64,000 nt of DNA from Roseivirga sp. (lineage in GTDB: Bacteria > Bacteroidota > Bacteroidia > Cytophagales > Cyclobacteriaceae). The DNA is taken from assembly GCA_021404565.1 (NCBI GenBank), contig JAAWWF010000005.1:186001-250000 (forward strand), written 5' to 3'. The notes beneath the pieces are model-generated. The model ran no database searches and was not told the DNA's origin. It saw only the letters and a list, made by a program, of their open reading frames with translations. Made by a program: the position numbers and the translations under genes. Below are positions 2,855-64,000 of this stretch, piece by piece (position 1 is the stretch's first letter; every line of letters begins with the position of its first letter).

Positions 2855-3040
2855 GGTTTGTTTGAGTTTGGTTAAAAATGTCTATCCTAAATGACGCTTT
2901 TTAAAGTCATCGGTTAACAACGATGTCAAAGAAAATCGAATACTGACTCTTTATCAGTGGGGAATGGGTGTGATCAGGTTATTTTTTCGGTGATGAATGG
3001 TATATGCAGCGGCAATCAAAAATTTGGCAACCGTCTGATC

Positions 3041-3055
3041 ATGTCATTATGACAT
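3041..3055. promoter_or_regulatory. Near-perfect palindrome upstream of grpE (possible activator site)
   Basis: ATGTCAT-T-ATGACAT, seven base pairs on each side of one central base. It lies 13 nt upstream of the sigma-54-like promoter before grpE. TGTCA repeats also occur directly upstream of the dnaK promoter near 63115-63137. It could bind an enhancer-binding or repressor protein; the binding factor is unknown. Confidence 0.5.
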
Positions 3056-3066
3056 TGATTTCTACT

Positions 3067-3082
3067 TGGCAGTATAATTGCT
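3067..3082 (+). promoter_or_regulatory. Sigma-54-type (-24/-12) promoter for grpE-dnaJ
   Basis: TTGGCA then TTGCT, with GG (3068-3069) and GC (3080-3081) separated by exactly 10 bases, as in the sigma-54 consensus TGGCACG-N4-TTGCW. Predicted transcription start is near 3092, leaving about 20 nt of leader before the GrpE ATG at 3112. No primary-type TAnnTTTG element is seen in this gap. Confidence 0.6.
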
Positions 3083-3111
3083 CGTTGGCAGACGGTTTTT
3101 TTGATAGAAAA

Positions 3112-3699
3112 ATGGCTAAAGCAAAGGACAAAAAAGAAACACTGGAGCAGGAAGAAGTAAAGAACACTGAAACTGCAGTAGAAGAACAACCCGAGAACAG
3201 CGAAGAGCAGGCTGAAGAACAACAAGAGGTTGAAGAAATTGAGCTTTCTGTAGAGGAAAAACTTCAGATTGAGCTGGCGGAGGCCAAAGACAAATACCTG
3301 AGACTCTATTCTGAATTTGAAAATTTCAGGAGAAGAAACGCTAAGGAAAAGCTGGAGCTGGTAAAAACTGCTTCGGCTGGTTTGGTAGAGCAACTGCTGC
3401 CAGTTGTGGACGACTTTGAGAGAGCTCAGGAGGCAAATAAGTCTCAGGAAGACATTGAGGCCATCAAAGAAGGCTTCGGCTTAATTCATAATAAGCTTTT
3501 GAAAACACTCGAAGCCAAAGGCCTGAAGGTGATGGAGACGGAGAAAGGCACTGACTTTGATGCAGATTTGCACGAAGCAATTACGCAGTTTCCGGCAGAT
3601 GAAGATGGCTTAAAAGGAAAGATTATAGATACGGTGGAGAAAGGTTATTATCTCGGTGAGAAGGTAATCCGATTTGCCAAAGTAGTGATAGGAGCTTAA
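3112..3699 (+). CDS. grpE: GrpE, DnaK nucleotide exchange factor
   Basis: 195 residues from ATG 3112, chosen because the reading frame upstream of it encodes non-GrpE sequence and contains the likely promoter. A charged Lys/Glu-rich N-terminal tail (about 1-55) precedes the long dimerisation helix with the family signature [15 protein letters not shown], and a C-terminal beta domain ending [19 protein letters not shown]. It releases ADP from DnaK in the cytoplasm. It stops 1 nt before dnaJ, so the two are one operon. dnaK itself is about 60 kb away at the end of the window. Confidence 0.95.
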
Positions 3700-3700
3700 T

Positions 3701-4816
3701 ATGGCCAAACGAGACTATTATGATATTCTGGGTGTGAGTAAAGGCGCCAGTGACGATGAGATGAAAAAAGCTTATCGCAAGTTGGCGATCAAGTATCACC
3801 CTGATAAAAACCCGGATAACCCCGAAGCGGAGGAGAAGTTTAAAGAAGCTGCCGAAGCTTATGAGGTGCTCACCAATCCTGACAAACGGGCACGCTATGA
3901 CAGATTCGGTCATGATGGCATGCGCGCAGGCGGTGGTGGAGCCGGTGGTATGAATATGGACGACATATTCTCTCAATTCGGAGATATCTTCGGTGGAGGT
4001 GGTAGTCCTTTCGAAAGTTTTTTTGGTGGAGGCGGAGGCGGCAGAAGTCGTCAGCGTAAGGGCACCAATCTGCGGGTAAAACTCAAACTTACACTGGACG
4101 AGATTGCCAACGGGGTTGAGAAGAAAATCAAGGTAAAACGCCTCATCAATGCTGAGGGAGTTACATTCAAAACCTGTAATACCTGCGGAGGCTCCGGTCA
4201 GACCAAAAAAGTAGTCAATACCATGTTGGGCCAAATGGTTTCTGCCAGTACCTGTCATACCTGCCAGGGATCCGGTAAAATCATTGATAAACGTCCTCCA
4301 GGTGTAGATAGTACAGGCCTGGAAATGATGGAAGAGGTGATCCCAATCAAAATACCAGCCGGTGTTTCTGATGGTATGCAACTCTCCATGTCAGGTAAGG
4401 GAAATATGGCCCCTGGTGGAGGCGTACCCGGTGACTTGCTCATTGTAATAGAAGAAGCGGAGCACGATGTGCTCAAGCGGGATGGCAATAATATCGTTTT
4501 CGATCTCTATGTTAACTTTGCAGATGCTGCATTGGGGTCAAGTATAGAAGTACCCACGATAGACGGTGCTGTACGTATCAAGATTGATCCAGGTACTCAG
4601 AGTGGTAAGATTCTGAGATTGAGAGGTAAGGGAGTCCGTGATATTAACGGATATGGCAAAGGCGACCAGCTGATACATGTTAACGTCTGGACACCGAAAA
4701 AGCTCAATTCGGAAGAAAAAGAAATGCTGGAGCGACTTAGGAGTGCCGATAACTTTGAACCGAAACCCGGTAAAGGCGAAAAAGGCTTTTTCGAAAAGAT
4801 CAGAGAATTTTTCTAA
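3701..4816 (+). CDS. dnaJ: DnaJ (Hsp40) co-chaperone with reduced zinc domain
   Basis: 371 residues. The J domain (1-70) carries HPD at 33-35; a Gly/Phe-rich linker spans 74-115; substrate-binding beta domains follow to about 330. The usual zinc region has four CxxCxGxG repeats, but here only two are present: Cys159/Cys162 (CNTCGGSG) and Cys185/Cys188 (CHTCQGSG). They correspond by position to repeats 2 and 3, which form zinc centre II. The places of repeats 1 and 4 hold NAEGVTF and [12 protein letters not shown] with no cysteine. It stimulates DnaK ATPase and delivers clients. Directly follows grpE; ends at a strong terminator. Confidence 0.95.
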
Positions 4817-59592: not shown

Positions 59593-61002
59593 TTATGACA
59601 AATACTGAGAAATGGCTTTTTCTCCCGGTGGTTTGGTCATGAGGCTGATGACAAAGAAAAGCAGTAGGGCGACCAGAAAGCCGGGTAATACCGGATCAAT
59701 GCTGGCATCTCCAAAGGCCTTCCAGAGCATGGTAATGGACACACCGCCTATCATGGAGGCAATTGCGCCCTGTTTTGTCGCTCTTCTCCACCAAAGGCCG
59801 ATTACTACAGGTACAAAGAACCCGGCTGCCATCAGGGCTGAGAAAAGTACCACGATAAACTGAATGAGCTCACCCTCGCCAATGCCGCTGATGATGAGGA
59901 ACAGCGGGATAATACCCACAATGAAAATGCCGATGCGTGCCACTTTGAGACGCTCTTTCCGGGTGGCATTGGGTTTGAATGCAGACCGGTAGATATCTTC
60001 TGACAAAGCTGATCCTGCTACGAGGAGCAGGGAATCTACGGTAGACATCATGGCAGAGGTAATGGCTGCCAGCATAAGTGTGCCAATAAAGGTAGGTAAG
60101 ACAGCCTTGGCAATGATTGGCATGGCCATATCGCCAGTAGGCAGTGTTGGGAACAGTACCATACCAGAGAGGCCTAATATAAAGACCAACAGATTGATAA
60201 TGGTCACTACCAATACGGTGAGCAGTATGCCTCTGCGAATAGTCTTCATGTCTTTCATAGCATAGAGCCGGGTGACCTTTTCGGGGGTGGAAACAGAGCC
60301 CAGAAAGAAGGCAAGGCCCAATGTAAAGAGCAACACTGCCGGCATGCCCTCCCAGGTAAAGGCTGTAGGCTTAATGGCCTCTACGTAAGAGAGTAAATTG
60401 CCCAACGAGTCGAAATGCCTTATGGCGAGTGGAACCGATACCACAGCTCCGATGCACATGATGATGAGTTGAAGAAAATCGGTATATACTACGGCTATCA
60501 TGCCTCCTACTACTGTATAGGCAAGTAATATGACGGTGAAAATCACCATACCGTTTAGTTTGGGAATACCGAAAACGATATTGGCAACCAGGCCTCCGGC
60601 AATGATTTGCGCCTGGATATATACGATGGTGGCGATCAGAATAATGACTGCGGCTACCGCCCGGGCCTTTTTGCTTTCATAGCGAGCCTCCAGAAAGGCG
60701 GGTAAGGTAAGCTGTTTTACTTTGGTGAAACGAGGAGCCAGCACTGCCGCCATAAACCAATAGGCGAGGGGAATGGAAAGCACGACCCAGCCAAATGACC
60801 AGCCTACTGAGTAGATGACTCCGATGGTGCCGATAAATGTTCCTGCACTCGTATGAGTAGCTGCCATGGTGGCACCCCCTACGAGCCATCCCAGTTTGCC
60901 ACCAGCAATCCAATAGTCCGACTCGCTTTTAGTACGCTTCAGGCTATACCAGCCTATGCCGAAGATAATAAGGAAGTAACATGTGAATATGGTCAGCTGC
61001 AT
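59593..61002 (-). CDS. Sodium:solute symporter (SSS family)
   Basis: 469 residues, about 13 membrane helices. SSS features: WIAGGKLGWLVGGATMAATHTSAGTFIG near the N-terminus (sodium/substrate site) and ITSAMMSTVDSLLLVAGSALSEDIYR. Closest in pattern to the pantothenate/amino acid branch. The dipeptidase in the same operon suggests uptake of an amino acid or dipeptide product. A 37-codon membrane protein gene ends 4 nt upstream. Confidence 0.93.
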   Translation of the reverse strand: MQLTIFTCYFLIIFGIGWYSLKRTKSESDYWIAGGKLGWLVGGATMAATHTSAGTFIGTIGVIYSVGWSFGWVVLSIPLAYWFMAAVLAPRFTKVKQLTLPAFLEARYESKKARAVAAVIILIATIVYIQAQIIAGGLVANIVFGIPKLNGMVIFTVILLAYTVVGGMIAVVYTDFLQLIIMCIGAVVSVPLAIRHFDSLGNLLSYVEAIKPTAFTWEGMPAVLLFTLGLAFFLGSVSTPEKVTRLYAMKDMKTIRRGILLTVLVVTIINLLVFILGLSGMVLFPTLPTGDMAMPIIAKAVLPTFIGTLMLAAITSAMMSTVDSLLLVAGSALSEDIYRSAFKPNATRKERLKVARIGIFIVGIIPLFLIISGIGEGELIQFIVVLFSALMAAGFFVPVVIGLWWRRATKQGAIASMIGGVSITMLWKAFGDASIDPVLPGFLVALLLFFVISLMTKPPGEKAISQYLS

Positions 61003-63114: not shown

Positions 63115-63137
63115 TGTCAAAGTGTCATCAAATGTCA
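63115..63137. promoter_or_regulatory. TGTCA repeat cluster upstream of dnaK
   Basis: Three TGTCA units (63115, 63123, 63133) directly upstream of the -24/-12 element. TGTCAAAGTGTCA resembles the grpE palindrome core TGTCATTATGACA with one arm altered. Possible shared activator or repressor site. Confidence 0.4.
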
Positions 63138-63149
63138 GATATATTCCTT

Positions 63150-63165
63150 TGGCACAGCCCTTGTT
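63150..63165 (+). promoter_or_regulatory. Sigma-54-like (-24/-12) promoter for dnaK
   Basis: TGGCAC, 5 nt, TTGTT: GG (63151-63152) and G at 63163 have the required 10-base gap, but the -12 GC is GT. Predicted start near 63175, leaving a leader of about 40 nt. It matches the arrangement before grpE. Confidence 0.5.

Positions 63166-63211: not shown

Positions 63212-64000
<789 letters not shown>

Follow-up and report, generated by a model that had tools for sequence, protein, structure and literature searches.

Sigma-54-Type Promoters at Two Chaperone Loci

The window analyzed here, a 64,000-nucleotide stretch of a Roseivirga genome (class Bacteroidia, phylum Bacteroidota), carries two parts of the DnaK chaperone system: a grpE-dnaJ gene pair and, at its end, the 5′ part of dnaK (Table 1). 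An initial annotation of this DNA had proposed that these core chaperone genes may be under the control of sigma-54 (RpoN) and an enhancer-binding protein. Our analysis concerns the promoters on which that proposal was based, a second element formed by TGTCA/TGACA half-sites farther upstream, and a gene linked to groESL whose product is a candidate for the activator.

The promoter upstream of grpE, TTGGCAGTATAATTGCT, has the GG and GC dinucleotides of the −24 and −12 elements in an exact GG-N10-GC arrangement, and lies 29 bases from the grpE ATG at position 3112. Its counterpart upstream of dnaK, TTGGCACAGCCCTTGTT, reads GG-N10-GT, such that the spacing, the GG, and the G fit the sigma-54 consensus but the C does not; 49 bases separate this site from the ATG at 63215. 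Both motifs stand at the coordinates originally given for them, and the TTGTT at dnaK had already been quoted. When the window was searched for TTGGCAN6TTGCW with at most one mismatch, just the grpE and dnaK sites were recovered from the 64 kb. This count is no excess, because shuffled windows gave a mean of 4.1 matches, and it is the placement of the two sites that is striking. Genome-wide, the exact promoter motif has 15 matches, compared to 3 for the reversed pattern. Ten of the 15 lie inside open frames of more than 150 codons, and the grpE site is not one of these.

Scans of the window's grpE and dnaK intergenic stretches bear out the original statement that neither a controlling inverted repeat of chaperone expression (CIRCE) nor a TAnnTTTG element is visible there. 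Relative to the CIRCE consensus TTAGCACTC-N9-GAGTGCTAA, the best matches in these stretches are 11 of 18 letters (grpE) and 9 of 18 letters (dnaK). The longer pattern TTG-N17-23-TAnnTTTG is likewise missing from both.

Table 1. Chaperone genes and putative regulatory elements in the window
Feature	Position	Strand	Basis
grpE	3112..3699	+	Pfam GrpE, 1.6e-38
dnaJ, directly 3′ of grpE	3701..4816	+	Pfam DnaJ and DnaJ_C
dnaK, 5′ part, continues past the window end	63215..64000	+	Pfam HSP70, 1.3e-125
Sigma-54-type promoter of grpE-dnaJ, TTGGCAGTATAATTGCT (−24/−12)	3066..3082	+	Direct reading, pattern search, comparison of 37 genomes
Sigma-54-type promoter of dnaK, TTGGCACAGCCCTTGTT	63149..63165	+	Direct reading, comparison of 37 dnaK upstream regions
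Predicted grpE transcription start, leader of about 19 nucleotides	3093	+	Inferred: 12 bases past the −12 element, sigma-54 geometry
Palindrome TGTCATTATGACA, proposed activator site (upstream activating sequence) of grpE, centered near −45 from the predicted start	3042..3054	.	Inverted repeat I4 and combined motif
TGTCA half-site of dnaK, 34 bases upstream of the −24 box	63115..63119	.	Position common to relatives
TGTCA half-site of dnaK, 26 bases upstream of the −24 box	63123..63127	.	Position common to relatives
TGTCA half-site of dnaK, 16 bases upstream of the −24 box	63133..63137	.	Position common to relatives

Promoters and Half-Sites Recur Together in Close Relatives

We compared upstream regions from 39 closely related genomes, including that of the window (G000), which yielded 38 regions for grpE, 37 for dnaK, and 35 for groES. 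For grpE, 37 regions were collected by script and that of genome G037 by hand, because the start-finding pattern had lost it; G035 gave no grpE match. Genomes G017 and G035 were left out of the dnaK set, and the groES set lacks G023 and G031, which have no strong match, as well as G028 and G034, which failed the start pattern. The genomes G000 and G009 are 8.2 to 8.6 megabases (Mb) in size, and most of the same genus are 4 to 5 Mb.

In these regions, a TTGGCA-N6-TTG-type site usually lies near the start codon of grpE, dnaK, and groES, at distances that are similar across the relatives. Taken singly, the promoter sites gave p values from 0 to 0.35 against shuffled sequences, and some do not beat the shuffles. 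The G of the −12 element is constant among the chosen sites (37/37 for grpE, 37/37 for dnaK, and 34/34 for groES), in column counts that favor conservation since they use best-scoring sites in which the GG and the spacing are required by construction (37/37, 37/37, and 34/35 passed). No CIRCE was seen in the relatives' upstream regions, where the best match is 12 of 18 letters.

The initial annotation did not include the second element. It is a palindrome of the form TGNCA-N3-TGNCA that lies 10 to 12 bp upstream of the −24 box of grpE, and we combined it with the promoter into a 17-letter motif, TGNCA-N3-TGNCA-(10-12)-TTGGCA-N6-TTG. All 37 scripted grpE regions, that of the window's own genome included, score at least 15 of 17, whereas 1110 shuffled regions reach a maximum of 13. 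Counting the region collected by hand, the combined motif precedes grpE in 37 of 38 genomes, the exception being G037. Scores of at least 14 are found for 25 of 37 dnaK regions (1 of 1110 shuffles) and for 15 of 35 groES regions (1 of 1050 shuffles), and in a scan of the window the grpE site is the best match, at 17 of 17.

Half-sites are also abundant when counted independently of the combined motif. Within the 100 bases upstream, they total 72 at grpE against a shuffle mean of 9.8 (37 genomes), 92 at dnaK against 14.7 (36 genomes), and 88 at groES against 13.6 (32 genomes). For this count, 36 of the 37 dnaK regions were used, that with a promoter score below 21 being omitted, and 32 of the 35 groES regions. 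At grpE, the half-sites mostly read TGTCA-N3-TGACA and begin 24 to 25 bases upstream of TTGGCA, and the commonest position at groES is −23.

Additional features were noted around these elements. A perfect 9-nucleotide inverted repeat, AACCGTCTG/CAGACGGTT (3029-3037 and 3089-3097), flanks the half-sites and promoter of grpE; a run of T residues lies 3′ of its right arm, and a further repeat pair is present at 3015-3022 and 3098-3105. We rejected an RNA hairpin formed by the 9-nucleotide repeat, since its left arm is located 5′ of the predicted start and a sigma-54 transcript would not include it. Use of the palindrome TGTCATNATGACA as a genome-wide landmark was also rejected: The 8.57 Mb contain it once, no more and no less often than its control, and exact-match counting is therefore uninformative. 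A gene named lon-like by eye in the window's own genome has an exact sigma-54 motif shortly upstream (locus L034, 1501-1517, reverse strand), with a single half-site at −14. We considered clpC as a further regulon member and set it aside, because the promoter match there falls within an open frame upstream of it and may be due to chance.

A Candidate Activator Gene Is Linked to groESL

The genome that contains the window encodes RpoN once (PF04552 at 1.4e-55; 486 amino acids counted from the first ATG). For PF00158, the sigma-54 activation domain, it gives 12 strong matches, and an additional activator gene is cut off at the end of contig C27 (L015, 1459-1632), directly after miaB. The original proposal of RpoN control with an enhancer-binding protein is thus supported, given that RpoN and 12 activators are encoded and that the sites recur in relatives.

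In relatives, the gene of this activator is part of a recurring order, which is miaB, activator, lptE, a tetratricopeptide repeat (TPR) gene, secG, groES, and groEL. Because the activator gene is cut at the contig end, this linkage to groESL is not visible in the window's own genome. The last few residues of the truncated protein depart from those of the relatives, and the groESL genes of this genome are on contig C14.

Sigma-54 activators of the PspF type, known from Proteobacteria, have an AAA+ domain and a Fis-type helix-turn-helix (HTH) without an N-terminal receiver domain. The groESL-linked protein shares these characteristics. In the orthologue from genome G001, Pfam matches identify PF00158, an AAA+ lid, and a Fis-type HTH (HTH_8), whereas neither a receiver nor another sensor domain was detected. 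An 18-row alignment of the activator retains G[S/A]FTGA, the Walker A sequence GESG[S/T]GKE, and the Walker B sequence LDE[I/V]. However, the candidate differs from the PspF type by a linker of about 110 residues before the HTH, by its linkage to groESL, and by its proposed site near −45. It matches the PspF family TIGR02974 with 261 bits, under the cut-off of 443.55, and all 25 of its NCBIfam matches among those listed fall under curated cut-offs. An AlphaFold model of the activator (mean predicted local-distance difference test score 60.7, predicted template modeling score 0.42) was too poor to be used.

Full-length orthologues of the activator are present in 35 of the 38 relatives and are missing from G023, G031, and G035. 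In a phylogenetic tree, 28 orthologues group in one clade (support 100/99) that excludes the 12 other activators encoded by the window's own genome, which are separated from one another by long branches. All 28 rows retain the HTH core LGIS[E/Q]RTLYRK.

To describe the linkage we used the loci of the best 80 of at least 588 relatives, ranked by activator match. In this set, 63 loci have room of 5 kb or more, and in 53 of these groES follows in the same orientation no farther than 7 kb away. Of 58 groES regions, 47 contain a half-site within 60 bases, compared to 6.2 expected. An activator of 389 amino acids (C75), which was our first candidate, was abandoned, as no chaperone gene was recognized among the surrounding frames. 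The groESL-linked, receiver-less enhancer-binding protein is the best candidate for the activator of the chaperone genes.

The grpE Arrangement Recurs across Sampled Bacteroidia

We then sampled 99 genomes from the phylum. The DNA upstream of grpE was obtained from 70, of which one (L254) was too short, and 69 were examined; 39 of these 69 stretches extend just 700 bases upstream. All 23 Bacteroidia regions score at least 14 for the combined motif (22 of them at least 15), a value reached by 1 of 690 shuffles. In contrast, none of the 46 regions taken from other classes of the phylum exceeds 13, and none of them carries the combined motif. An activator orthologue matching with at least 560 bits is present in each of the 24 sampled Bacteroidia genomes other than the window's own, three of these matches containing one stop, whereas matches outside the class range from 322 to 456 bits and many are without the HTH end.

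The HrcA/CIRCE heat-shock system acts on chaperone genes, among them grpE, dnaK, and groESL. Outside the class, 32 of 47 loci have an hrcA coding sequence next to grpE (three of them Pfam-confirmed), compared to none of 61 Bacteroidia loci. These counts concern the grpE neighborhood, hrcA having not been searched elsewhere in the genomes, and 40 of the 108 stretches include 700 or fewer bases upstream. At the Bacteroidia loci examined, then, the HrcA neighbor is absent beside grpE and the sigma-54-type arrangement is present. HrcA also differs from the proposed regulator in being a repressor that acts on a different inverted repeat.

Two families outside the class show related arrangements. 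In family f34, all six loci inspected by eye (L211, L244, L247, L249, L253, and L255) have TGGCA-N6-TTGC promoters with one TGTCA/TGACA half-site farther upstream. The next-best scores for the activator orthologue, 425 to 456 bits, come from 12 genomes of this family, and six of the 28 sequences in the activator clade come from it. In family f23 (L238, L240, and L248), sigma-54-like sites precede grpE at three of three loci, with no clear half-sites.

Proposed Regulation of the Chaperone Genes

We propose that grpE-dnaJ, dnaK, and groESL constitute one sigma-54 regulon that is driven by the groESL-linked activator through the half-sites, a reading to which we give a probability of roughly two in three. 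The promoters, the half-sites and their recurring spacing, the class-wide arrangement at grpE, and the domains, linkage, and distribution of the activator are all present in the sequences themselves. Beyond these features, we infer the binding of the protein, its activating role, a stress signal, and feedback by chaperones. Specifically, RNA polymerase carrying RpoN would rest on TTGGCA-N6-TTG in a closed complex that is inactive. An activator dedicated to these genes, presumably the receiver-less PspF-like protein of the miaB-groEL cluster, would bind the TGTCA/TGACA half-sites about 45 bases upstream of the start, adjoining polymerase, and would open the closed complex using ATP. As no sensor domain was detected, activity of the protein is probably gated by a partner. 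We speculate that free chaperone restrains the activator, and that unfolded protein sets it free.

A number of observations weigh against this proposal. Sigma-54 activator sites are usually located at approximately −80 to −150, farther from polymerase, and act by looping, so a site near −45 would be much closer than is customary. The arrangement is less regular at dnaK and groES than at grpE. Within the window, the dnaK region scores just 14 for the combined motif, a value that shuffled windows reach too, and the case for dnaK therefore rests on the comparison with relatives; a score of 15 is found inside a gene at 59593-61002. Among the 15 exact promoter matches of the window's own genome, grpE alone has the pair of half-sites. 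In G037, a perfect grpE promoter has no half-site within 70 bases, and this genome has three half-sites at dnaK and only distant ones at groES. Moreover, the initial annotation had looked to conservation of GG-N10-GC in related genera. This expectation holds as GG-N10-G but fails for the C, which is kept in 15 of 37 grpE sites, 3 of 37 dnaK sites, and 20 of 34 groES sites.

The distribution of the proteins also includes unfavorable points. G023 and G035 have no activator orthologue, and G031 retains the promoters and half-site-like sequence without any activator at an E-value of 1e-30. G031 is also without groES, which suggests an assembly gap, and given that neither G023 nor G031 has a strong groES match, the activator locus may be missing from these assemblies. 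RpoN was found in all 99 phylum genomes sampled, and proteins more weakly related to the activator occur commonly outside the class. Thus, the mere presence of either protein discriminates nothing.

One alternative is that the sigma-54 promoters are real, whereas the half-sites belong to a different enhancer-binding protein or to a repressor, perhaps a response regulator of the RprY type, that blocks polymerase by occupying a site in contact with the promoter. A palindrome near a promoter would suit a repressor, the window's own genome encodes 12 further activators, and the grpE promoter of G037 stands without half-sites. In Porphyromonas gingivalis, RprY binds the groES, dnaK, and clpB promoters in gel-shift assays, and the authors suggest repression (PMC3646045). 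The accessible text of that paper does not use the words motif, consensus, or binding site, so the RprY site is not comparable with ours (PMC3646045). Counterevidence comes from two genomes, G029 and G037 (drafts that are 97% and 93% complete), in which the groESL-linked type is the sole activator at an E-value of 1e-30 and the promoters are kept. G029 has half-sites at grpE, dnaK, and groES, and G037 has them at dnaK. Pairing of activator and site by elimination is consequently strong for G029 and partial for G037. The presence of the orthologue throughout the sampled Bacteroidia and its linkage to groESL also argue against a different regulator, and we regard this alternative as the less probable explanation, worth roughly the weight of a serious minority view. 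The genome of G037 is 1.6 Mb, and its grpE promoter (L057, near 1239) has the full sigma-54 consensus.

It is also conceivable that the linked activator serves its own cluster, including lptE, secG, and envelope functions, such that its association with chaperone genes is incidental and another conserved activator drives them. The cluster does hold miaB, lptE, the TPR gene, and secG, and for 10 of the 63 loci (from the best 80 of at least 588 relatives) no groES in the same orientation lies within 7 kb. However, this explanation calls for a second activator, and in the two draft genomes just described no other is detected at the same threshold; we consider it unlikely.

Finally, it is very improbable that sigma-54 is not involved and that TTGGCA, whose TGGCA resembles the half-sites, is a site for a TGNCA-binding factor at genes whose transcription depends on a sigma-A or sigma-70-like promoter. 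In favor of this reading, the −12 C is unconserved, a sigma-70-like ATGACA-N18-TATAAT (11 of 12 letters) overlaps the grpE sigma-54 site at 3049-3078, and TAnnTTTG by itself is present in 5 of 37 grpE, 2 of 37 dnaK, and 5 of 35 groES regions. Against it, the full sigma-A pattern TTG-N17-23-TAnnTTTG is nearly absent upstream of these genes (1/37, 0/37, and 0/35), TATAAT is found at the grpE site in just 6 of the 37 genomes compared, and mapped starts of the same genes in Flavobacterium psychrophilum carry a −24/−12 motif that mutagenesis confirmed at a different operon (PMC9723704).

Relation to Published Chaperone Regulation

Control of chaperone genes by sigma-54 is not new for the phylum. 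In F. psychrophilum, for which the accessible text lists only sigma-A, sigma-54, and extracytoplasmic function (ECF) sigma factors, mapped transcription starts assign sigma-54-type promoters to groESL, dnaK, grpE-dnaJ, lon, and htpG (PMC9723704). This sigma-54 (SM4) regulon resembles the one proposed here in having −24/−12 promoters at core chaperone genes, and three PF00158 proteins were noted in it (PMC9723704). The parts of that study available to us neither describe an upstream site nor assign an activator, and suggest only that distinct activators may exist (PMC9723704). These start data agree with RpoN control, and the regulation originally proposed for the window is probably correct.

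A 2025 study of computed regulons likewise reports chaperone genes as enriched behind sigma-54 promoters in Bacteroidota, and its accessible text calls grpE (Bacteroides thetaiotaomicron and F. psychrophilum) and groES (B. thetaiotaomicron) sigma-54-dependent (PMC12316311). The authors remark that the specificity of activators is available for only some of their organisms, and the string "upstream activat" is absent from the main text (PMC12316311). For P. gingivalis, no classic CIRCE was found, according to the accessible text (PMC3646045). In the open-license passages and abstracts searched, we found no naming of the TGTCA half-sites or of a groESL-linked activator. Thus, the promoter class has already been published for the phylum, and the control site and the candidate activator look new within that literature.

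The findings permit a broader proposal, which we offer only tentatively as it is more doubtful than not: The groESL-linked activator might be a class-wide master regulator of heat shock and proteostasis that has replaced HrcA/CIRCE at grpE, acts without looping from a site adjoining the sigma-54 polymerase, and is restrained by the chaperones that it induces. For the core chaperone genes of Bacteroidia, no activator is named in the literature searched, and the loci examined are without CIRCE and without hrcA beside grpE. If the half-sites indeed act from −45, then their geometry would be unlike that of the usual looped sigma-54 enhancer. With both an activator gene and a site now named, control of the chaperone genes in these bacteria becomes testable.
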